Below are positions 3,281-61,809 of a stretch of DNA of 64,000 bases, piece after piece (the first letter of the stretch is position 1; each line of letters opens with the position of its first letter). The notes below the pieces were generated by a model. It was not told the DNA's origin. It made no database searches and was given only the letters and a program-made list of their open reading frames with translations. The DNA comes from a virus. The translations under genes were made by a program, and so were the position numbers. The stretch spans positions 36,139-100,138 of the IMG/VR virus record IMGVR_UViG_3300035659_000004. One strand, 5' to 3'.

Positions 3281-3289
3281 ACTTGTACC
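3281..3289 (-). promoter_or_regulatory. Early-type promoter motif GGTACAAGT, minus strand
   Basis: Read on the minus strand the sequence is TTTGGGTACAAGTATAT, nearly the same as the early promoter at 43262 (ATTTGGGTACAAGTATAT). It points towards the 19-residue microprotein and away from the polymerase gene. It overlaps the region just before the polymerase start, where the plus strand also has a TATACT box. Confidence 0.5.
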
Positions 3290-3306
3290 CAAAGTCGAGG
3301 TCGTAT

Positions 3307-6300
3307 ATGAATTTGACACCCATCCTTCAAAGTCCAGATGAGAAGCGCGAACGTATTCGGAATAAGGTCGTGGAAGGACTGACAGAATCATTCCCAATTA
3401 CGGCGCGTAACAAAATCATAGAAGTGACAGATGTTTCTTTTACTCCTCGAGACTACACCTCGAACGAGCAAAAGATGGCTATCTTGAGAGGTGATTCTCT
3501 TTTCGAGACCGCGAAGGGGACAGTGAAAATAAAAGACGCGAAGACGGGTAAAGTCTTGGATGAAGCGAAGGGATTTACATTAGCTCGAGTACCGTGGTTT
3601 ACTCCACGACACACGCTTATTGTCGGAGGAAATGAATATTCGATTGCGAATATGGTGCGTCCTAAACCAGGGGTGTACGCTCGCAAGCGCGCTAATGGAA
3701 TTCTCGAAGCAAGTTTTAATACCATAGGTACTTCGAACTTTAATGTAACGATGGACCCTGAAAAAGGTGAGCCAGAACTCGAATATGAATCCTCGAAGAT
3801 TCCCCTTTACACCATTCTTCGTGCATCGGGTATGTCCCATGAGACTATCGCGAAGAAGTGGGGTACTGCTCTTGCGAATGAGAATCGAAAGAAGCTAGAA
3901 AAGAATCTTCCGCAACACGTAGACCGTCTTTATAAAAAAGTCGTACCGGCGTATGCCCTTCTTCCCGATCTTACTGTCGATGCGAAGATGGCTGAGATTG
4001 TTAAGCGTTATGGTACGGCTAAGATGGACCCAAAAGTAAATGAAAAAACGTTGGGACACGCGTATGGACACGTAACTCCTGACAGTCTTTTGGATGCATC
4101 AGCTAAAGTTTTGAGTATTTTCCGTAACCCAGAAGAAGTCGATGACCGAGATAATCTCGACTTCAAATCTTTGCGTTCAGTAGAGGACTTTTTCAAGGAG
4201 CGTATCCAACTCGATGCTCGAGACATTGGACGTAGAGCTGCTATTAAAATCGAGAATACCCCTGAGGTACGCAAGGCCATGGCTCCCGGGGCGTTCACTC
4301 CTGGCCTCGTCAAATTCATCACGGGCTCGCAGTTGGCAGCTGTTCCGACGCAGACCAACCCCATGGAGCTCATCGATGCCGCAGTACGTGTGACGGCATT
4401 GGGTGAAGGTGGTATTAGTTCCGAACGTGCTATTCCAATGGAAGCACGGATGATTCATCCGACGCAGATTGGAGCTATCGACCCTGTTCGAACGCCTGAG
4501 TCTTTTCGAGCGGGTATTGACGTCCGTGCTGCTATTGGAGCGCATCATGATAAAGATGGTAACATCTATGTTCCCATGTTCGATTTGGCGACGGGGAAAC
4601 AAAAGCATATTCGGGCAGGAGAAATTGCAACTTCAATCGTGGCATTCCCTCAGCAAGTTTTAAAGGGGAAGGTCTCAGCGCTTGTTAATGGACGTGTGGC
4701 GATGGTTCCTGCTAGTAAAGTTCAGTATCAAATACCACACTCATCTGCGATGTATGGACCTACTTCAAATCTCATTCCGTTCATCGAATCGTTGCAAGGG
4801 AATCGCCAACTGATGGGGTCCAAGCATCAGACCCAAGCTATCTCGTTAGTTGATCGAGAAGCTCCCTATGTACAGGTAATGGCGCCGGGTGGAAAATCTT
4901 TTGAGCATCTCATGGCGACGATTGTTAATCCAACAGCGCCAGTTGCGGGAACAATTGAGAAAGTAGATGGGGATTACATCTACATTCGACCACATGATAA
5001 GACAGCAGCCGTTAAAAAGGATAAAGACTCGGACCTCGTGCGCGTGTCATATGATACGTACTTGCCGATGGCTGCTAAGACCTATCTCAACCATACCGTC
5101 ACGGTGAAAGCGGGGGATGAGGTTAAGAAGGATGAGATCCTCGCGGAGTCTAATTTCACGAAAGATAAGACGCTAGCTCTCGGTAAAAATCTTTCCGTTG
5201 CATACATGCCTTATTACGGAGCAAATTCAAATGACGCGGTAGTTATCAGTTCCGGCGCCGCTAAAAAGCTGACGTCCGAACGTCTCTATAAAATTGTGCT
5301 CCCGCGTGACGCTGACATGGTTTTCAATAGTACGAAGCATAAGACGTATTACGGACATACCTACGGACATGACTATTACAAGGGCGTAGATGAAGAAGGA
5401 GTAGTACGCCCGGGTGCGAAAATTAATAGTGGGGAACCTGTCGTATTTGGGTTGCGGAAATCGACCCTGACTTCTGATGATATTCTTCTGGGACGTCTGC
5501 ACAAATCTCTCGTCCGACCTTTCCGAGATGCGACGCAGACCTGGGACCATGACCATCCCGGAGAAGTTATGGATGTCGTAAAGACGCCTAAGAGAATTGC
5601 AATCACAATAAAAACACAGGAACCTATGCAGATAGGTGATAAACTCTGTTACACGGAAGATACAGAAGTCCTGACGACAACGGGGTGGAAGTACATTGTA
5701 GATGTTACCACCGATGATATTTGTTATACGCTCGATACGCAGGGCATAATTCATTTATATAATCCTACACATACTAACTATTATTCTAAAGCAGGACAAC
5801 TTTTTTTAGTACGTTCACAGCATGCAGATTTATCTGTGACGTTGGACCATAGTCAGGTAATTAAAGATGGTGATAGGAATAAATTAGTCCCATCGCGTGA
5901 ATTGGTTAATAAGCCTTTTCAATTGGTGCGCACAGGAATTTGGACGCCGAAGAGTGCTCCTGAGTCAGACTCATGGTGTGCACTAGTTGGTTTATACGCC
6001 GTAAAAGGACATCTTATTCCTGCGACGCTTATACAGGGAGTTATGGACCATTCTGTAGAGATTTATCTACGTCCGCGTATGTTAGAAGAAGAACGTCCTT
6101 GGTTGGACCTTATTTTGCAAGATACGCACCTGAAAGATAAGAGTTATATTCAAGGTGATATTTTGATTATCCGAGACCGAGATTTTTATTTAAGTTGTCA
6201 AGTATTAGGGGACGTCGTAGAACGGCGACTTCCAACATTGGTATTCACTCTGGCTCCTAGCCAAGCCGGGATAATTATTGATAGCGTTTTAAAAGCCGCA

Positions 6301-8667
6301 GGTCATCAGACAGGACGAAGTCATATTCAGTACGGAGATGGGACTGATGTCTGTGTCGTGTATTCGCGGCAGTTAGCGGATGATCTACAGCGCTTGGCGC
6401 TACACGCGGGGTATTCTGCAAACATCGCAACGCATACAGTGAAACGCCCGCAATATGCGAAACGTTATTCGCTGCGGTTCCTCCGAAAACGTAGCAATCC
6501 GTTCATCAATAACCCGAGAGGTAACCAACAGAACACGCGAGTTATCGATTCAGATGCTCCAGTGTTTGGTATTACCATTCCAAATCACACCTTGTACGTG
6601 CGTGTGAATGGAAAGCCTGTGTGGTCAGGTAACTCCGGGCGATACGGGAATAAGGGTGTGGTATCTGAAATCGTTCCGGATGACCAGATGATTAAAGACG
6701 AAGCAGGACGACCTATCGATGTTCTTTTAACGTCAGCAGGTGTTGTCTCGCGCGTGAATCCCGCACAAATAATTGAGACAGCTGTAGGAAAGGTCGTCGA
6801 GAAGACGGGCAAGCCACTCATCGTCGAAAGCTTTTCAGGAAGAGATAATGTGAAGTGGGCGAAAGACCTTCTTCAGGAGCACGGTCTAAAAGACAAAGAG
6901 ATGGTTTTTGACCCGCGTTCTGGAAAGAGTATCCCGAACGTGATGGTGGGACGCCAATACATCTTCAAGATGTTCAAGTCCACGGACACCAACTACAGCG
7001 CACGAGGTGTGGATACCTACGACGCAAATCTTCAGCCTACGAAGGGTGGGTCTGAGAGTGCAAAGGCCATAGGTAAGATGGAGTTCGACGCGCTTGTCGC
7101 ACACAACGCCCGGAATGTGTTGCGTGAGTCTTCGGTCCTGAAGAGTCAGAAGAACGATGAGTACTGGAGAGCTCTTCAGCTAGGATATCCCACGCCTCCT
7201 CCGCGCACGTCTTTCGCTTCGGACAAGTTCTTCAATATGCTGACAGGCGCGGGAGTTCGTGTTGATCGTAAAGGCTCGAAGATAGGGTTGGCGCCTCTCA
7301 CAGACGCGGACGTGATGGAGATGTCGGCAGGTGAGATACAGGACGCGAAGCTCGTCAGTGCTAAGAATTTAATGCCTGAAAAGGGTGGGCTCTTTGATCC
7401 TGCAATCACCGGTGGAATGAAAGGAACGAAGTGGTCACATATCAATTTGGCCGAGCCTATTATCAATCCTATTTTTAATGACCCAGTTCGGCGGTTGTTA
7501 GGGATGACTAACGCGCAGCTCGATAATACCGTGCGCACAAAGGGTATCGGTTACGTTAAATCCGAGCTCGCGAAGATAGACGTCACGAAACGTGAGAGTG
7601 AACTCATGGATATGGCGAATAATAAGAAGGGAAATGTGCTCGATGATGTCACCAAGCAGATAAAGTATTTGCGGGCATTGAAGGCGCAGAACATATCTCC
7701 GGAGAAGGCTTACATCTCGAGCGTTATCCCGGTTCTTCCTCCGATCTTTCGCCCGGTGTTGCCAGGTAAGGGTGGGCAGGAGCTCATTTACGGCGACATC
7801 AATCCGCTGTACCGCGACTTGGTGTACGTGAACAACCAGTTCAAAGAGCTGAAGAAGTCTGGGAAGCTTCCTGACGAAGAGGCCAAGTTGCGAGGAACTC
7901 TCCAATCAGCGGTTGGAGCTGTGTATGGGATGAACGACCCCATCACACAGAAGTCAAAGAGTAGAAATCACAAGGGATTCCTGACGTATATCGCAGGACA
8001 GGGGAGCCCCAAGTACGGGTACGTGCATTCCAAGCTCCTGAAGAAACAGCAGGACTTGGCCGGCCGCGGAACGATTGTCCCGGATACGACTCTGGGAATG
8101 GACGAGGTCGGTCTCCCGGAGAATATGATTTGGACGATGTATAAACCGTTCATGATCACGCGCCTCGTGGGACAGGGGTATCCAGCGCTGCAGGCGAAGC
8201 AGATGGTCGATGATAAGCATCCCGCGGCGCGCGAGGCGATGATGCGCGAGACCCGGGAGCGGCCGGTCATGATCAACCGTGCGCCGACGCTGCATCGATA
8301 TGGAATAGTTGGAGCATATGCCATACCCAATGCCGGAAAGACCATAAGAATCAATCCTTTCGCGGAGGTAGGTACGAACAGCGATTTCGATGGGGATACG
8401 ATGATGGTCCACGTTCCAGCTGGAGCGAACGCTGTCGAAGATGTGAAGCGCATGACGCTTTCGAACACGCTTTATACTGACAAGATTCGCGGCGACCTAC
8501 TCGTGGCGCCTCGGATGGAATCGGTCATGGGGCTCGCGCAAGCTACGGCGGTTACGGGAAGCGGGAAGGCAAAGGTTTACCAAACCAAAGCCGAAGCGAT
8601 GGCGGACTACAATTCAGGAAAGATAGACCTGGGAACGAGGGTCACCATCAAGGACCGCAAGCCGTGA
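3307..8667 (+). CDS. Multisubunit-type RNA polymerase: fused beta and beta-prime N-terminal half, with intein
   Basis: The ATG at 3307 is preferred over an upstream TTG and gives 1786 residues. Beta motifs appear in order: VGGNEYSIANMVRPKPGVY near residue 105, IHPTQIGAIDPVRTPES near 385, NRQLMGSKHQTQA, and LALGKNLSVAYMPYYGANSNDA. Next comes GDKL, an intein, then SGRYGNKGVVSEIVP. Beta-prime motifs follow: MPEKGGLFDP, QDLAGRGTIVPDTTLG, INRAPTLHRYG, and the catalytic loop NSDFDGD (Asp1693, Asp1695, Asp1697), which binds the active-site magnesium. The N-terminal zinc-binding domain of beta-prime appears to be missing. The chain ends soon after the catalytic domain, and the rest of beta-prime is encoded at 10140-11942. 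No alpha or sigma subunit is seen in the window. Confidence 0.93.
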   Translation: MNLTPILQSPDEKRERIRNKVVEGLTESFPITARNKIIEVTDVSFTPRDYTSNEQKMAILRGDSLFETAKGTVKIKDAKTGKVLDEAKGFTLARVPWFTPRHTLIVGGNEYSIANMVRPKPGVYARKRANGILEASFNTIGTSNFNVTMDPEKGEPELEYESSKIPLYTILRASGMSHETIAKKWGTALANENRKKLEKNLPQHVDRLYKKVVPAYALLPDLTVDAKMAEIVKRYGTAKMDPKVNEKTLGHAYGHVTPDSLLDASAKVLSIFRNPEEVDDRDNLDFKSLRSVEDFFKERIQLDARDIGRRAAIKIENTPEVRKAMAPGAFTPGLVKFITGSQLAAVPTQTNPMELIDAAVRVTALGEGGISSERAIPMEARMIHPTQIGAIDPVRTPESFRAGIDVRAAIGAHHDKDGNIYVPMFDLATGKQKHIRAGEIATSIVAFPQQVLKGKVSALVNGRVAMVPASKVQYQIPHSSAMYGPTSNLIPFIESLQGNRQLMGSKHQTQAISLVDREAPYVQVMAPGGKSFEHLMATIVNPTAPVAGTIEKVDGDYIYIRPHDKTAAVKKDKDSDLVRVSYDTYLPMAAKTYLNHTVTVKAGDEVKKDEILAESNFTKDKTLALGKNLSVAYMPYYGANSNDAVVISSGAAKKLTSERLYKIVLPRDADMVFNSTKHKTYYGHTYGHDYYKGVDEEGVVRPGAKINSGEPVVFGLRKSTLTSDDILLGRLHKSLVRPFRDATQTWDHDHPGEVMDVVKTPKRIAITIKTQEPMQIGDKLCYTEDTEVLTTTGWKYIVDVTTDDICYTLDTQGIIHLYNPTHTNYYSKAGQLFLVRSQHADLSVTLDHSQVIKDGDRNKLVPSRELVNKPFQLVRTGIWTPKSAPESDSWCALVGLYAVKGHLIPATLIQGVMDHSVEIYLRPRMLEEERPWLDLILQDTHLKDKSYIQGDILIIRDRDFYLSCQVLGDVVERRLPTLVFTLAPSQAGIIIDSVLKAAGHQTGRSHIQYGDGTDVCVVYSRQLADDLQRLALHAGYSANIATHTVKRPQYAKRYSLRFLRKRSNPFINNPRGNQQNTRVIDSDAPVFGITIPNHTLYVRVNGKPVWSGNSGRYGNKGVVSEIVPDDQMIKDEAGRPIDVLLTSAGVVSRVNPAQIIETAVGKVVEKTGKPLIVESFSGRDNVKWAKDLLQEHGLKDKEMVFDPRSGKSIPNVMVGRQYIFKMFKSTDTNYSARGVDTYDANLQPTKGGSESAKAIGKMEFDALVAHNARNVLRESSVLKSQKNDEYWRALQLGYPTPPPRTSFASDKFFNMLTGAGVRVDRKGSKIGLAPLTDADVMEMSAGEIQDAKLVSAKNLMPEKGGLFDPAITGGMKGTKWSHINLAEPIINPIFNDPVRRLLGMTNAQLDNTVRTKGIGYVKSELAKIDVTKRESELMDMANNKKGNVLDDVTKQIKYLRALKAQNISPEKAYISSVIPVLPPIFRPVLPGKGGQELIYGDINPLYRDLVYVNNQFKELKKSGKLPDEEAKLRGTLQSAVGAVYGMNDPITQKSKSRNHKGFLTYIAGQGSPKYGYVHSKLLKKQQDLAGRGTIVPDTTLGMDEVGLPENMIWTMYKPFMITRLVGQGYPALQAKQMVDDKHPAAREAMMRETRERPVMINRAPTLHRYGIVGAYAIPNAGKTIRINPFAEVGTNSDFDGDTMMVHVPAGANAVEDVKRMTLSNTLYTDKIRGDLLVAPRMESVMGLAQATAVTGSGKAKVYQTKAEAMADYNSGKIDLGTRVTIKDRKP
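5647..6633 (+). other. Intein inside the polymerase beta region (329 residues)
   Basis: The intein interrupts the conserved beta sequence GDK-x-x-GRxGNKG. It starts with Cys (CYTEDTEVLTTTGW, block A) and ends VNGKPVWSGN, followed by Ser of the C-extein. A block B-like TLDHSQVI is present. The residue before the last Asn is Gly, not the usual His. The middle contains LVGLYAVKGHL and SVLKAAGHQ, which look like LAGLIDADG helices whose catalytic acidic residues have become Lys and Ala. The splicing domain looks complete while the homing endonuclease looks inactive. Splicing would restore GDKLSGRYGNKG. Confidence 0.85.
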
Positions 8668-10136
8668 CAGATTCTCCGACGATCATCTCCGGACCGGACT
8701 ATACCCTGACTAAACAGGAAGTGGTCGATTACTATAAAGACCCGGGGGTTCGAGAAAAGCTTCTTCAGCATATCGGGAGCAACCCTGTTCTGACTGTGAT
8801 GCAGCGCACCCCCGGGGAGCCCATCTATCGACGCTACGACGCGAAGAAGCAGCCTCTTCTTCTGAATCCCCAGTCGTTAGACGACCTTACGAGGCAACGT
8901 ACCGTGGAGTTCCACTCTACCCTCGGCGAGGGTACACGGGAAATGTGGGTAGATTTGGACCCTGGCTCGGCGGTCTCTCCCGGCCGGCTCAAGCAGACGG
9001 TGAAGCACGTTGAAGACGTGTTGCGAAAACTCCCTCAGGTCACGAATACGAATATCGTTTTTTCAGGAGGTCGAGGCTACCACGTGCGCGCCGAGCTCGA
9101 GAAGGAGCTCAAGACAGACGCCGCCCGAAAGCTTCTTCAAAAGACGTTGCGCCCGCTGCAGACGTCGAGCCCCGACCTTGTGGATGCTCCTCCTGGAGGA
9201 ACTCAGATTCGCTTGGATACCTCGACGTTCCATGCCAAAGGGTCTGTGCGGGCGCCCTACTCTTTGAACGCGACGACGGGACTGGTAGCGTTGCCTGTGG
9301 CGCGTGAAAAGTTGGACATATTCGAGCCCAAGACTGATGCGTCCATCAAGAGTGTCTTGTCCCAAAAAGACATCGGGGAGTTTGCTCCAGGGATTCCTCG
9401 AGAGCGAACGACTCAGCTCCTGCCGACTGCCAAGGGCAAGGCCTGGACGCTTGCGATACAGAAGCACGTAGCTGAAAAGGCTGGACCGCATTGGGACTTG
9501 CGCCTCGTTGACCCCGAGACAGGACAGGCCCATTCCTGGGCGGTCCCTAAGGCTTCTTTTCCGGACTCCAAGCCACGCCTTGCTTTGCAGATGCCAACGC
9601 ATAGCGCGGACTACGCCCTTTCTTTTGGTGCGAAAGGTCCGCAAACTATTCGTGAAGGGTACGGTAAGGGCACGGTGGAGATGGCGCATAAGGAGCCTAT
9701 CCAAGTTTTGGAAATCAATCCAAATAAGGTTGTTTTTCAGCGCGGCTCCGGGGACACTCTGGCGATGCGTCGAACGAACGAAAACAAGTGGTTGCTCCGA
9801 AAGGCAACGAACATGACTGAGAAGAATGCTTTTTACGTTGCTGGATACCGCGCGGCGCTTGCCAAGCTTGGGGCAGCGGCAGTTAAACCTGTGGGAATGC
9901 GTGGAAAAGAGATGTCCTATGGAGAGGGAAACCGTCCCCTGGAAAGTGGAGATTCCCATCTTCCCGCGGGACAGGTTGCGATGATGTTCCAGCAGTTGCC
10001 CCGAGCTCAACGACGAGGTGGCAGTGTATCGTTGGAGAACTCGTCAGCCGTCGGAGATAACCATGCGGATTGGGGTCCAGCAATGGACGTCTCGAGTTTT
10101 GATGGAGCTTCTCCGTATATGGCAGGACGGAACTGA
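8664..10136 (+). CDS. Archaeo-eukaryotic-type primase/polymerase fused to LigD-like 3'-phosphoesterase domain and a C-terminal tag
   Basis: The gene starts at GTG 8664, overlapping the polymerase stop (GTGA), and encodes 490 residues. Residues about 90-230 carry the three primase motifs: VDLDP (Asp97, Asp99), SGGRGYHV (His140) and RLD (Asp185), followed by GSVRAPYSLN, as in LigD-type polymerase domains. Residues about 260-380 resemble the LigD 3'-phosphoesterase: QKH (His268), PHWDLRL (His276, Asp278), SWAVPK, His313 and a final WLLRKA. No ligase domain is present. Residues 388-403 (NAFYVAGYRAALAKLG) are the tag that starts several small proteins elsewhere. An internal ATG at 9813, with AAAGG upstream, could yield the last 107 residues separately. 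The likely role is primer synthesis or end processing on DNA. Confidence 0.8.
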   Translation: MTDSPTIISGPDYTLTKQEVVDYYKDPGVREKLLQHIGSNPVLTVMQRTPGEPIYRRYDAKKQPLLLNPQSLDDLTRQRTVEFHSTLGEGTREMWVDLDPGSAVSPGRLKQTVKHVEDVLRKLPQVTNTNIVFSGGRGYHVRAELEKELKTDAARKLLQKTLRPLQTSSPDLVDAPPGGTQIRLDTSTFHAKGSVRAPYSLNATTGLVALPVAREKLDIFEPKTDASIKSVLSQKDIGEFAPGIPRERTTQLLPTAKGKAWTLAIQKHVAEKAGPHWDLRLVDPETGQAHSWAVPKASFPDSKPRLALQMPTHSADYALSFGAKGPQTIREGYGKGTVEMAHKEPIQVLEINPNKVVFQRGSGDTLAMRRTNENKWLLRKATNMTEKNAFYVAGYRAALAKLGAAAVKPVGMRGKEMSYGEGNRPLESGDSHLPAGQVAMMFQQLPRAQRRGGSVSLENSSAVGDNHADWGPAMDVSSFDGASPYMAGRN

Positions 10137-10139
10137 TCC

Positions 10140-11942
10140 ATGGCAGATAGGACTGACACATTCGGAAGATTGCTTGTAAATGACTTGTTGCCAGACGAGC
10201 ACAAGGTCACGGGACCTATATCGAAGAAATCTTTTTATAAGATGCTCGATACGATGTCGCGTGAGACTCCGGATGCGTATGTCCGCATAGTGCCCGAGTT
10301 AAAACGTCTCGGAGATTCACTTGCTACGACGGAGGGGCTCTCGGTTGGATTGGACGATATCACTCCCAACTATAAAGATAGGAATGAAACACTTGCTCCT
10401 TTTATTACGCGTTTCGATGCGGCTAAAACGGATAAGGCCCGGAGTCAAATAGCAGAAGAAGCGCATGGTAAGATGCAAGATGTGGCGATGCGCCATAAGG
10501 GAACGATGACGATGCAGGTACAGAGTGGGGCACGCGGTAACCCTACTCAGTACACCTCGATTGTGGCATCTCCAACTTCAGCACGAGACGGAAAAGGGAA
10601 TACGGAACCCTGGCTTATCCGACGGTCCCATAGCGAAGGGCTCTCTTCGGCGGATAACTGGGTCGCGGGAAATGAAGCCATTCTTAATACTATCAGTACA
10701 TACACAGCGGTATCTGAGCCGGGTGAATTGGCGAAGATTCTCGTGAGTAACATGAGCGACATCATAGTAACAGAGGATGATTGTGGAACTACTAATGGTG
10801 TGTTTATGACTGCTTTGTCTCCTTCTGTATTGGACCGTTATCTTGCGAAAGAAGTAGGTGGTTTTAAACATAACACGCTTATTACGTCACTCAATCAGTC
10901 CAAATTAGCAAAGATTTCTTCTACTATTCTCGTCCGATCTCCGATGACGTGTGAGGCAGGGGATGGTGTCTGCCAAAAGTGTCAGGGCCTAAATGAAAAG
11001 GGAAGCACGCATGATATCGGAACGAATGTTGGTGTACGCGCGGCCCAGGCAATGGCGGAACCTCTTACGCAATTCGCTCTCGGGGCCAAGCATGGGGCGC
11101 GAACAATTAAAGATGATCGTATCAAGGTGAAGGGGGTCCAAGGGTTTCGACAGATCATTGAATCCCCCCAGCAGTTTGTAAACAAGGCGACGTTGGCGCA
11201 GCTGAATGGAACTGTTGAGCGCATCACTCCGGCTCCACAAGGCGGCCATTACGTCGTGATTGGTGGACAACAACACTACGTAACTCCTAATCTCGCAGTC
11301 ACGGTAAAAGTTGGAACAGTCGTTCAGGCTGGAGACGCTGTAAGTCAAGGAATTCCCAAACCCGACGAAGTCGTACGACTGAAAGGTCTGGGAATAGGGC
11401 GTCAATATATTGTTGATACCTTGGCAGGTCTTTACAAGGACCAGGGTCGAGAATTAGATCAGCGGCATTTCGAGCTGCTCGCTAAGGGAGAGCTCAACTA
11501 CGTGCGCGTTCTCAAAGACCCAAGCCGTAATTTCGTTCCGGGGGACGTAGTTAGTTACAACGTCTTGAGGAGGGAACTGAAGAAGGGTACCAAGGTCATG
11601 CCCGTCGACGACGCCAACGGGGAGACTTTAGGTAAAGCTTATTTTCACTTTTATACAGGAACTCGTGTTACTCCCCAGATTCAGGCCTACCTGAAACAAC
11701 AGGGAGTAAAGGAAGTCATCATCGCTCCGCGTGCGCCTGAAGTAGAATTCATCATGAAAGCTGCGACCCGAGCCCCTCTTCTAAACCCCGATTGGATGGC
11801 TCGATTGTCGCATCGCAATTTGAAAAATACAATCATGCAAGCCACGCACTTTGGAGAATCTTCAGACATCCACGGAAGCCACCCTGTTCCTGCGTATATT
11901 ACGGGAGTAGAATTTGGGCAGGGTACCAAAGGAAAGTACTGA
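10140..11942 (+). CDS. RNA polymerase beta-prime, C-terminal half
   Basis: These 600 residues continue beta-prime from where the fused gene stops. It begins DTFGRLLVNDLLP, matching TxGRxxxNxxLP in cellular beta-prime. GNPTQYTS and SEGLSSADNW lie in the bridge-helix region. EDDCGT and CEAGDGVCQKC supply the four cysteines of the second zinc site, and GTNVGVRAAQAMAEPLTQF plus the following HGAR correspond to the trigger-loop region. The end (PAYITGVEFGQG) matches the cellular C-terminus. It must assemble with the product of 3307-8667 to give an active enzyme. It starts three bases after the primase stop, so all three genes probably share one mRNA. Confidence 0.9.
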   Translation: MADRTDTFGRLLVNDLLPDEHKVTGPISKKSFYKMLDTMSRETPDAYVRIVPELKRLGDSLATTEGLSVGLDDITPNYKDRNETLAPFITRFDAAKTDKARSQIAEEAHGKMQDVAMRHKGTMTMQVQSGARGNPTQYTSIVASPTSARDGKGNTEPWLIRRSHSEGLSSADNWVAGNEAILNTISTYTAVSEPGELAKILVSNMSDIIVTEDDCGTTNGVFMTALSPSVLDRYLAKEVGGFKHNTLITSLNQSKLAKISSTILVRSPMTCEAGDGVCQKCQGLNEKGSTHDIGTNVGVRAAQAMAEPLTQFALGAKHGARTIKDDRIKVKGVQGFRQIIESPQQFVNKATLAQLNGTVERITPAPQGGHYVVIGGQQHYVTPNLAVTVKVGTVVQAGDAVSQGIPKPDEVVRLKGLGIGRQYIVDTLAGLYKDQGRELDQRHFELLAKGELNYVRVLKDPSRNFVPGDVVSYNVLRRELKKGTKVMPVDDANGETLGKAYFHFYTGTRVTPQIQAYLKQQGVKEVIIAPRAPEVEFIMKAATRAPLLNPDWMARLSHRNLKNTIMQATHFGESSDIHGSHPVPAYITGVEFGQGTKGKY

Positions 11943-45304: not shown

Positions 45305-45426
45305 CCGAGCCCACACCACGCCCGACCATCTATAAGATGCCGTCGAAGAATCTTCCGCGCAAACCCGCGTCCGAGCAGGACAAACGGCTCTGGGAAAAAA
45401 ACAAGAAAAAGCATGGTATAAAATGA
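45301..45426 (+). CDS. 41-residue basic protein
   Basis: The ATG at 45301 overlaps the preceding stop (ATGA). The frame encodes 41 residues rich in Lys, Pro and Arg (MTEPTPRPTIYKMPSKNLPR at the start). The last codons overlap the promoter motif of the RNA gene that follows. It is supported mainly by coupling and by filling the gap exactly. Confidence 0.45.
   Translation: MTEPTPRPTIYKMPSKNLPRKPASEQDKRLWEKNKKKHGIK
45415..45422 (+). promoter_or_regulatory. Early-type promoter motif (GGTATAAA) of the RNA gene
   Basis: GGTATAAAATGATG lies inside the end of the 41-residue gene and just before the start of the strongly structured region. It matches the GGTAYAAG class except for the last base. Confidence 0.45.
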
Positions 45427-45429
45427 TGT

Positions 45430-45861
45430 CGCGGCCTCCGTGTAGCTAGTTGAGTAGGCTCGCTGAGCTCAACTTCGCTGCTGTTACAGCAGTAATACAG
45501 ACTCAATACCCGGAGGGAGAAATTGGGACCGGCGGTGCCCGCTCCCAGTTTATCTCATACATTGTTGCTTCTCGGGCGGAAGCAAACAATGTACACGTAC
45601 ACGGAGGTCGTGACACTTTTGGCCGTACTGCAGCATTTCTTTTCAGAAGAATATGCTAGCTGAAGATACTTCAGTAATACAAGCACGCAACTAGAAAAAG
45701 AGTCTGACTAAGACTTTTCGCTTCTAGCTCCTCGCGACTTTTTTACGTCGGACGTTAAAAAGTCAGCTCCTCGCGTCGAAGGTAAAAGTCTTAGCGGGAA
45801 CTCTCAGGAGTGCGGCAGGAGAGGGGTACGTGTGTGACAAACATGGTACCCTTCTTTTTTT
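45430..45861 (+). ncRNA. Large structured noncoding RNA, about 430 nt, unknown class
   Basis: This stretch has an upstream promoter motif and ends in a terminator-like hairpin (GGGTAC 45824 with GTACCC 45846, then TTCTTTTTTT). Between them are many strong helices: CCTCCG/CGGAGG enclosing GTTGAG/CTCAAC and CTGCTG/CAGCAG; ACATTGTT-GCTTC with GAAGC-AACAATGT; GCAT-TTCTT with AAGAA-ATGC; CTGAAG/CTTCAG; CTAGAA/TTCTAG around AGTCT/AGACT; and GACTTTTT with AAAAAGTC around ACGT. AGCTCCTCGCG occurs twice (45726, 45765). CTAAGACTTTT and AAAAGTCTTAG could form an alternative long-range helix. The only long frame (TTG start, no ribosome site) is not convincing. It recalls large phage RNAs such as GOLLD or ROOL in kind, but identity is untested. 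Confidence 0.7.
45824..45861 (+). terminator. Intrinsic terminator of the large RNA
   Basis: GGGTAC pairs with GTACCC, with TGT/ACA inside, followed by TTCTTTTTTT. It lies just upstream of the TATACT box of the next gene. Confidence 0.65.
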
Positions 45862-45883: not shown

Positions 45884-46237
45884 ATGCAAGCTACCTATAA
45901 CAAACTCCTTGATTGGTACAAAAAGCAGCCATGGTGGGGGAAGGTCCTCTTCTTCGGGGTCTTCATCCTCTTGGGTGTGCTCTTCATCGCTTTCAATTTT
46001 TCGTCTCTTTTTGCAGGGACGGGATTTGTTTCTCCTAAAAAGATTTCGACGTCTCCTCCTTTTGGGAAGATAAACGAATCTCTTGATGTCCAAATTGAGA
46101 ATGCTAAAAAAGTATTGCTAACGAGACTCGAGACAGTTCGCCAGGTGGGCGTACGCTCGATGGAGCGGCAAAAAGCCATCCAAAAAGCTACGACGATGGA
46201 GGAGCTCGACAAGTTAAAGGAGAAATACGGATTATGA
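45884..46237 (+). CDS. Membrane-anchored protein, lysis candidate 1
   Basis: This 117-residue protein has a short N-terminal part, one transmembrane helix (residues about 20-40, VLFFGVFILLGVLFIAF) and a soluble helical C-terminal region. It overlaps the next gene by four bases (ATGA). The pair resembles an inner-membrane and secreted lysis pair in size and arrangement, but no spanin or holin motif is definite. Confidence 0.5.
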   Translation: MQATYNKLLDWYKKQPWWGKVLFFGVFILLGVLFIAFNFSSLFAGTGFVSPKKISTSPPFGKINESLDVQIENAKKVLLTRLETVRQVGVRSMERQKAIQKATTMEELDKLKEKYGL

Positions 46238-46686
46238 AAAAAGGTATATGGTCTTTGTCTCTTCTCCTTTTCTTGTTTCTTACTAAACCGATACAGGCTG
46301 AAGACTTCCCTGAACGAAAAGTACCAGACGTAAAAACGACGACGTTGCAAGGCAAGGACTATAAATGTTTTGACACAGCCCAATATTCGTCGCTTCTGCT
46401 TATGTCCTCGGATTACCAGGCTCTTCGGCAGGTCTATTATCTGAATGTCCCCAAGCTCTATAATGACTTGGAAGATTTGTACGTCCTCAAACTGTCGCTC
46501 AAGGATGACGAGCTTGCTGTGGTCAAAGGGCATTTGAGTAACGCACAGAAAGAACTCGCAGCTCGGTCTTTAGTCGACGAAAAAGTCGTGAAGAAACTAC
46601 AGTTGTCTGCGACAGGTTGGAAAGTTATCTCTGGAGTGGAAGCTGCGTTGCTCGTGGCCGTAACTGGTTACGCTATCTTCAAGTAA
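46234..46686 (+). CDS. Secreted or membrane protein with signal peptide, lysis candidate 2
   Basis: This 150-residue protein has a clear signal peptide (MKKGIWSLSLLLFLFL, cleavage probably after TKPIQA), a coiled-coil middle (residues about 75-115) and a C-terminal hydrophobic helix (GVEAALLVAVTGYAIF). It would sit in the periplasm anchored at its C-terminus. With the preceding gene it may act in lysis. It converges on a minus-strand gene, overlapping it by eight bases. Confidence 0.55.
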   Translation: MKKGIWSLSLLLFLFLTKPIQAEDFPERKVPDVKTTTLQGKDYKCFDTAQYSSLLLMSSDYQALRQVYYLNVPKLYNDLEDLYVLKLSLKDDELAVVKGHLSNAQKELAARSLVDEKVVKKLQLSATGWKVISGVEAALLVAVTGYAIFK

Positions 46687-47224
46687 AAAGTCCCATCGCT
46701 TCTTGCAACCCCGGACGTGCAGCTCTATTCTGGAATAAGCTATTCACGACAGGGGTCTGGGATTGAGCTTGAAGAAGTTGGTCAGCTTGCCGGAATTGTG
46801 CAGCTTGTTGGGGATAAGCTCCTGCGAATTGATTTTGGTGTGCGATATTCACAGGTGTCTTGGGGGCGGCCTGTAAGCGGACTGTCGCTGGGTCATACCC
46901 AGGGAGATTTTTAGCTCGAGCTGCAGGTGCGACAGTTGCTGATGGTGTTTGTTCCGCTAGAGTTCTAAACGGAGTTTGGGGTTCCACCGTTCGAGATTTA
47001 AGGCCTTCCATAAATTCTCTTTGTGTTGGGGTAGGAACTCCTGGGCGCACCGTCGGTCGAAGAGCTGCTCGCATGGCGGTACTCTCAGGTGCCACCATAG
47101 CCGTAGCCGGCGCGCGTGTGAAGAGGCTCTTCGCCGCTCGCGCGGCTGAGTCTAGGATACCTGCTTCTTTTTGAAATCCCAGGTCCCAAAGCGCTTGGGT
47201 ATATCCTAGCTGCTGAAAATTCAT
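46679..47224 (-). CDS. Tag-bearing Ala/Pro/Gln-rich protein
   Basis: This 181-residue protein starts MNFQQLGYTQALWDLGFQKE then AG, one of the best copies of the tag. The rest is Ala, Pro, Gln and Thr-rich and probably disordered. Its ATG lies in the ATGA overlap with the upstream tag-bearing gene. Both are minus-strand genes inside the plus-strand early region, suggesting they belong to the virion set. Confidence 0.6.
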   Translation of the reverse strand: MNFQQLGYTQALWDLGFQKEAGILDSAARAAKSLFTRAPATAMVAPESTAMRAALRPTVRPGVPTPTQREFMEGLKSRTVEPQTPFRTLAEQTPSATVAPAARAKNLPGYDPATVRLQAAPKTPVNIAHQNQFAGAYPQQAAQFRQADQLLQAQSQTPVVNSLFQNRAARPGLQEAMGLFT

Positions 47225-47664
47225 TGGTATCCTGCCTGCATTTGCATCTGTGGGTCGTACTGCTGCATGGGCTGTCCCGGAGGTGGAGCTCCCGAGCCCA
47301 TCACATATCCTAGGCCACCCGCTCCTGCGCCAGTCAGAGCTATACTCTTGAGTGGGTTACTCCGAATACGCGCTAAAAGACCCGGAGATGCTGTTGCTGC
47401 AGGCGCTGCGGCTGCTGCTTCTGTGGCTGCTGCCGCTGCCGGAGCTGCTGCCGCTGCCGGAGCTGCTGCCGCTGCCGGAGCTGCTGCCGCTGCCGGAGCT
47501 GCTGCCGCTGCCGGAGCTGCTGCCGCTGCCGGAGTTTTTGGAGTACGCGTAAAGAATCCTTTCGCTTTCGACGCTAGAGTCTTTGCCCCTGAGATTAATC
47601 CCGCTTCTTTTATCAGACCCATATCGACTAATGCCGCTTGATATCCTGCTTGTTTGAAAGGCAT
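47221..47664 (-). CDS. Tag-bearing protein with AAAAAP repeats
   Basis: This 147-residue protein starts MPFKQAGYQAALVDMGLIKE then AG after an ACGGAGGAA ribosome site. The middle is six AAAAAP-type repeats, an Ala/Pro rod-like linker. The C-terminal part has a short hydrophobic glycine-rich segment (IALTGAGAGGLGYVMGS) and a Gln/Met-rich tail. It leads a two-gene minus-strand operon. Confidence 0.6.
   Translation of the reverse strand: MPFKQAGYQAALVDMGLIKEAGLISGAKTLASKAKGFFTRTPKTPAAAAAPAAAAAPAAAAAPAAAAAPAAAAAPAAAAATEAAAAAPAATASPGLLARIRSNPLKSIALTGAGAGGLGYVMGSGAPPPGQPMQQYDPQMQMQAGYQ
47426..47533 (-). repeat. Six 18-bp tandem repeats coding AAAAAP
   Basis: GCTGCTGCCGCTGCCGGA is repeated six times without change on the plus strand. 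In the minus-strand gene it encodes Ala-Ala-Ala-Ala-Ala and Pro. Identity between copies points to recent expansion and likely length variation between isolates. Confidence 0.9.
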
Positions 47665-60638: not shown

Positions 60639-60697
60639 GGTACAAGAAAGTAAGAGGAAACAACCGCGGTGCTGAGCGCCGCAGAAGGGGGATTACT
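60639..60697 (+). promoter_or_regulatory. Early promoter (GGTACAAG) and leader hairpin
   Basis: GGTACAAG (60639-60646) is followed by a leader with GCGGTGCTGAGCGCCGC (60666-60682), then AGAAGGGGG and the ATG at 60698. The leader AACAACCG...GCAGAAGG is nearly the same as at 61772. Confidence 0.6.
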
Positions 60698-61730: not shown

Positions 61731-61809
61731 TCAAATTGGAAGACTTTTTCAGGTATAAGGAAGTAACGCGAACAACCGCGGTGCTGAGCGCCGCAGAAGG
61801 GTAAATATC
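61731..61809 (+). promoter_or_regulatory. Early promoter (GGTATAAG) and leader hairpin
   Basis: TCAAAT (61731) and GGTATAAG (61752-61759) lead to the hairpin GCGGTGCTGAGCGCCGC (61778-61794), AGAAGGG and the ATG at 61810. Confidence 0.6.

Follow-up and report, generated by a model that had tools for sequence, protein, structure and literature searches.

A structured noncoding phage RNA built of repeated modules and its probable relatives at two conserved loci

Results

A modular RNA in a phage with its own RNA polymerase

The window analyzed here is a 64-kb stretch of a 100-kb IMG/VR record (labeled G000), and its positions 45428 to 45861 almost certainly encode a structured noncoding RNA of ~430 nt that consists of two homologous modules and has homologs at two loci of a related phage, G002. 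Relatives of this virus carry, at two conserved loci, RNAs of one, two, or three such modules that very probably belong to one family.

According to domain matches, the virus is a tailed phage (the portal match is weak) with its own multisubunit RNA polymerase, by which its nearest cultured phages are Vibrio phage D69 and Salmonella phage Arash (~30% identity). The relatives G001 to G023 were gathered through the RNA polymerase subunit gene at 10140-11942, and those from IMG/VR were retrieved by pattern with the RNA polymerase gene as the query. The polymerase genes (3283-8667 and 10140-11942) display both a fusion and a split of subunits: in a 1794-aa protein, Rpb1 domains 1 and 2 come after those of beta (Rpb2), and a separate gene in the window encodes the remainder of beta' (Rpb1 domain 5). 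Between the two polymerase genes, a gene at 8664-10136 has LigD primase-polymerase and 3'-phosphoesterase-like domains. Elsewhere in the window, two short genes are preceded by an identical leader hairpin, GCGGTGCTGAGCGCCGC, at 60666-60682 and 61778-61794, whose flanks are also similar, and the minus strand at 47221-47664 encodes a 147-aa protein with a long alanine-proline repeat (AAAAAP units).

Fold and conservation of the window RNA

The predicted fold of 45428-45861 comprises two closed domains and a terminator hairpin (Table 1). Its minimum free energy is -182.3, compared with -130.9 ± 5.9 for dinucleotide shuffles (z score of -8.7; 0 of 100 as low), and the plus strand folds more stably than the minus strand (-183 versus -154). 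In a coarse scan of the plus strand of the window in 150-nt tiles, coding stretches also reach a z of -5, so that a fold z score alone is insufficient and a homolog is needed. Such a homolog is present in G002 (172.9 kb), where the corresponding region occupies the equivalent position, flanked by the same genes; its fold has an identical domain plan, a z of -8.4, and a similar strand difference (-195 versus -168). RNAalifold applied to the two sequences found 28 pairs changed on both sides.

The 69-aa frame open in the window from TTG 45450 is broken by several stops in G002, and the homologous part of G002 contains no plus-strand open reading frame (ORF) of 40 aa or more. Because the changes in G002 are paired and this frame is broken, it is the helices, not a protein, that are conserved; a protein-coding stretch starting at TTG 45450 was accordingly rejected and has practically no probability. 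These results bear out the initial annotation, which had described a structured RNA without a convincing coding frame and had named homologs conserving that frame instead of the helices as evidence to the contrary; the opposite was found. By its folding, its paired changes, and its lack of a conserved frame, the RNA belongs with the large structured phage noncoding RNAs, as a kind rather than a family.

The window RNA extends from the stop codon of the upstream gene to a terminator-like hairpin. An intrinsic terminator had been claimed, and one is indeed found, with its stem at 45823-45829/45846-45851 and T7 at 45855-45861; a different but equivalent hairpin followed by T7 occurs in G002. A generic terminator scan did not list this hairpin because its loop is long. 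The early-type promoter of the initial annotation fared less well, as a sigma-70 scan was negative and the TATAAA (45417-45422) falls within GGT ATA AAA TGA (G-I-K-stop), with which a 41-aa ORF ends; the product of this ORF is conserved in G002. Since TATAAA lies in codons of this conserved protein, its conservation is no evidence for a promoter. A separate promoter is thus unproven, and because the RNAs begin at stop codons, cotranscription with the upstream gene is likely.

A switch between mutually exclusive helices had also been suggested. The CTAAGACTTTT/AAAAGTCTTAG helix has a mean pair probability of 0.996 versus 0.0005 for the local competitor, no competing local helix was evident on inspection of the G002 sequence, and no pair of mutually exclusive conserved helices controlling the terminator was found. 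The repeat AGCTCCTCGCG was located at 45726-45736 and 45765-45775; both copies face each other in one internal loop of P9, a loop nearly invariant in G002.

Table 1. Coordinates of the window RNA, its flanking genes, and structured stretches next to DNA polymerase genes
Feature	Position	Strand	Basis or remark
Conserved 41-aa ORF; last codons hold TATAAA	45301-45426	+	Ends 1 nt before RNA; protein kept in G002
Module I	45428-45614	+	One closed domain in fold; R2 match at 45433-45614
Closing helix P1, 5' strand, 17 bp, partner 45598-45614	45428-45444	+	Mean pair probability 0.98; several pairs differ in both partners in G002
Module I triloop hairpin GCUGCUG-UUA-CAGCAGU, then AA	45477-45493	+	Changed stem in G002, GCUGCAG-CUA-CUGCAGU
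Closing helix P1, 3' strand	45598-45614	+	Fold and paired changes in G002
Module II	45622-45816	+	Fold; covariation over three homologs
Closing helix P6, 5' strand, partner 45809-45816	45622-45629	+	Pair probability 1.00
Hairpin P7	45632-45657	+	Fold and three-homolog alignment
Triloop hairpin P8 GCUGAAG-AUA-CUUCAGU, then A	45659-45675	+	Fold, hairpin pattern, three-homolog alignment
Long arm P9 with nearly invariant internal loop CUUCUnGCUCCUCG/CUCCUCGCGnCGAAG	45699-45804	+	Fold and alignment
Junction motif CUCUCAG, directly 5' of closing helix	45801-45807	+	(Y)CAG here in most modules
Intrinsic terminator-like hairpin and T7	45817-45861	+	Position and U-tract matched in G002
117-aa membrane protein gene, downstream of RNA	45884-46237	+	RNA-then-gene order same in G002 and G021
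150-aa protein gene, signal-peptide-like start	46234-46686	+	Gene listing and comparison with relatives
Structured noncoding stretch after DNA polymerase gene	L289 5795-6785	-	Positions on reverse complement
Structured noncoding stretch after DNA polymerase gene	L272 12431-13036		
Structured noncoding stretch after DNA polymerase gene	L265 13757-14300	-	Positions on reverse complement
Structured noncoding stretch after DNA polymerase gene	L293 4046-4210	-	Positions on reverse complement
Structured noncoding stretch after DNA polymerase gene	L258 2506-2780	-	Positions on reverse complement
Structured noncoding stretch	G021, after DNA polymerase gene		

The two domains as copies of one module

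The module II copies of this locus (locus A) in the window and G002 were used to build a covariance model (R1), which identified a second, one-module RNA in G002 at 119485-119644 on the minus strand (E value of 1.7e-12; z of -6.4). The covariation check on aligned homologs proposed in the initial annotation could thereby be run on three sequences: module II has 48 pairs with 98.5% of cells paired, and 21 of them are changed on both sides, as are 6 of the 9 pairs of closing helix P6. Shuffles gave 7.7 ± 2.3 such pairs (0 of 500 reached 21) and slid controls 1 to 4; fitting of the alignment to the model structure favors that structure, a concern limited by the slid controls and by the unfitted two-sequence result. 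A second model, R2, was built from module II of the window and of G002 and the second G002 copy, with module I left out. It matches module I (G000 81571-81752, that is, window 45433-45614) with an E value of 0.013, and because it was built without module I, the two domains are most likely one module duplicated in tandem.

Twelve modules were tabulated. In their common plan, a closing helix encloses a triloop hairpin and a variable arm; a first hairpin is often present as well, and in most modules (Y)CAG immediately precedes the 3' strand of the closing helix. All modules share the triloop hairpin (GNUAC or GUAAC), which has a stem of at least 6 bp and a G-C pair closing over NUA or UAA; the UAA form was added post hoc, after inspection of G021. 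Hairpins of this type number 188 in 3.55 million strand-bases, about one per 19 kb of strand, and their density in G005 and G021 is about six in ~0.8 kb. The hairpin pattern search gave six matches in G000, G002, and G018 and none in the reversed control. A complete CUCCUCG loop, nearly invariant, occurs just in the window and G002. The number of modules varies (1, 2, or 3), and the triloop hairpin is kept while its stem changes freely, as expected of repeated binding sites.

Related RNAs at two loci

At locus A, the order of RNA, 117-aa-like membrane gene, and 150-aa-like gene is common to the window, G002, and G021; in G021, a structured stretch (z of -8.1) precedes the two genes. G020 has homologs of both genes, with no RNA seen before them. 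At locus B, an SLT-like gene is followed by the RNA and then by a deoxynucleotide monophosphate kinase (DNMK) gene, an arrangement kept in G002, G005, G018, and G021, with a gene of ~100 aa between RNA and kinase gene in three of the four phages. The SLT and DNMK assignments are Pfam matches in G002, and the locus was reached in the other three phages through the kinase gene, G018 having already been flagged by the hairpin pattern. The noncoding stretches of G005 (z of -6.2), G018 (z of -7.6), and G021 (z of -3.2) have two, two, and three modules, respectively, and each finishes at an intrinsic terminator; in G002, the closing helix doubles as the terminator stem. In an unfiltered R2 search over 79 kb, five of the best six matches were locus-B RNAs of the three phages, several at exact module extents. 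The E values are weak (0.04 to 0.7; 0.2 to 0.6 for some G018 and G021 modules), and the argument lies in rank, exact extent, and synteny. Our own motif finder gave 45 matches versus 22 in the reversed control, and solely those with good folding or synteny were kept. A TnpB guide RNA was considered and rejected: a 400-aa TnpB-like gene, recognized by eye, lies upstream of G002 locus B (L216 2881-4083, minus strand), with the SLT-like gene between it and the RNA, and in the other phages no such gene was seen adjoining the RNA within the stretches listed.

Structured stretches of 165 to 991 nt (z of -7 to -12) also directly follow the DNA polymerase gene in G018, G012, G010, G020, G021, and G007; in G000, G002, G005, and G016, the next gene takes their place. 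The G018 stretch contains nine copies of a linker, CAGYAGTRYC, between folded units. R2 did not recognize these arrays, which may or may not belong to the module RNA family. In G021, a structured stretch with a GUAAC triloop hairpin lies between tRNA-Glu and tRNA-Gln genes (L299 2139-2515, minus strand; z of -6.7).

Searches in databases and other phages

Rfam returned no match for the RNA at the gathering score in the window and none for the related loci; at an E value of ≤10, nothing relevant was found in the RNA region, the sole match being a weak PreQ1 outside the RNA. The membership in GOLLD, ROOL, or HEARO considered initially is therefore not upheld. Protein pattern searches of IMG/VR with the genes flanking the RNA found no relatives, a DNA search of public phages gave no match, and exact-pattern scans with GCTGAAGATACTTCAGTA and GAACTCTCAGGAGTGCGG added G002 alone. 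With the CUCCUCG-loop pattern in viral and bacterial collections, G002 was, among the matches listed, the sole relative in the model-searched loci (nine bacterial loci left out), and a viral scan with the SLT-like protein returned just the three phages that were already known. R2 had no match in Arash or Vibrio phage D69, and the unannotated gaps of Arash, inspected by eye, held nothing resembling the module RNA. No description of the family was found in the literature covered, mostly outside subscription journals.

Discussion

The module is repeated in varying number, and its hairpin persists while the stem changes, a pattern that suggests several binding sites of one kind carried by a terminated RNA. 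Our best guess, with a probability of about 0.37, is a multivalent scaffold or decoy acting in trans. The RNA would be transcribed together with or just after the upstream genes, transcription would halt at the terminator, and the RNA would accumulate as a stable species, whose repeated modules would bind one common partner, most probably a protein of the phage or its host that recognizes the triloop hairpin and junction. CsrB/RsmY-type sponges follow such logic, with several copies of one hairpin motif on a terminated RNA binding several copies of one protein. The likeness lies in this proposed working logic only: the repeated hairpin and the terminator are observed and protein binding is putative, whereas the module RNA motif is not GGA in a loop and the modules are multihelix junctions. 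The pRNA of phi29, a small structured phage RNA with a multihelix junction, works in trans; for the module RNA, trans action is proposed, there is no Rfam match, no link to packaging genes was seen, and the module number varies. Against a trans-acting decoy, the closing helix of G002 locus B, as a terminator stem, suits a cis element equally, the triloop hairpin and (Y)CAG are short motifs, and other large structured bacterial RNAs with solved structures form assemblies of RNA itself, not decoys (PMC12286853).

The strongest rival, and the main variant of our proposal, is an ornate RNA that, like GOLLD, ROOL, and OLE, would self-assemble by contacts between loops, giving dimers, rings, or cages of identical molecules, and would serve as a container or scaffold. 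We consider it somewhat unlikely. In its size, in having several long helices, and in occurring in phages, the module RNA fits the kind described previously (PMC12286853), and the repeated AGCTCCTCGCG and the triloop hairpins could serve as contact sites. GOLLD can adjoin tRNA genes, and one related structured stretch of G021 sits between two of them. However, no Rfam family matches it in sequence or by covariance model, a GNUAC triloop offers little length for a kissing loop, and the one-module form of G002 would have fewer contact sites. ROOL is a large noncoding RNA of phages and mobile DNA and, like GOLLD, resembles the module RNA in being large, noncoding, and phage-borne. GOLLD is elaborately folded, as is the module RNA, and its function is little understood, and ROOL forms RNA-only cages (PMC12286853). 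The module RNA has no covariance-model match to either; it is smaller than GOLLD, with one to three copies of a GNUAC-triloop module, and differs from ROOL in architecture, its own oligomerization being hypothetical.

Readings tied to the neighboring genes have less in their favor. The modules could form a structured 3' untranslated region that protects or regulates the upstream mRNA or is trimmed off as a 3'-derived small RNA, in keeping with a structure that starts a few to some tens of nucleotides from the stop codon at locus A, locus B, and the DNA polymerase locus, with the terminator at the RNA end, and with the fact that no separate promoter is demonstrable. The upstream genes differ by locus (41-aa ORF, SLT-like gene, DNA polymerase), giving no common target, and the structure exceeds the elaboration needed for stability hairpins, which makes this reading unlikely. 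A tandem riboswitch or attenuator, whose modules would sense a ligand and whose terminator would control the downstream gene, would match the succession of tandem modules, terminator, and gene in tandem aptamers such as the glycine riboswitches, and DNMK at locus B would be a sensible target. It is nevertheless very unlikely, because the downstream genes differ (a membrane protein at locus A versus DNMK or the ~100-aa gene at locus B, and a convergent gene after the DNA polymerase locus) and the helix proposed to act as a switch is unpopulated; moreover, the window terminator is an independent hairpin. There is equally little to recommend, or slightly less, a selfish or mobile RNA element inserting after stop codons: presence varies among relatives at the DNA polymerase locus, and G002 has two RNA loci, but no nuclease of its own was seen adjoining the window copy, and phages whose RNA polymerases are ~60% identical share the orthologous positions, so that movement must be rare.

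Returning to the multivalent trans-acting RNA, we tentatively suggest that the phage clade with its own multisubunit RNA polymerase may carry several dispersed RNA genes that are assembled from copies of one module, differ in module number and locus, and share a trans partner, the long linker-repeat arrays at the DNA polymerase locus included. What is new is the modular, multilocus build; large phage RNAs are a known kind, to which GOLLD and ROOL are related in kind, not in sequence. The structures of GOLLD and ROOL are known and their function is not, and the present family adds an RNA that evolves by duplication of whole modules and can occupy several sites in one genome. Its natural one-, two-, and three-module versions allow a comparison of what one module does, and the conserved triloop hairpin and CUCUCAG junction are concrete targets in the search for a partner.
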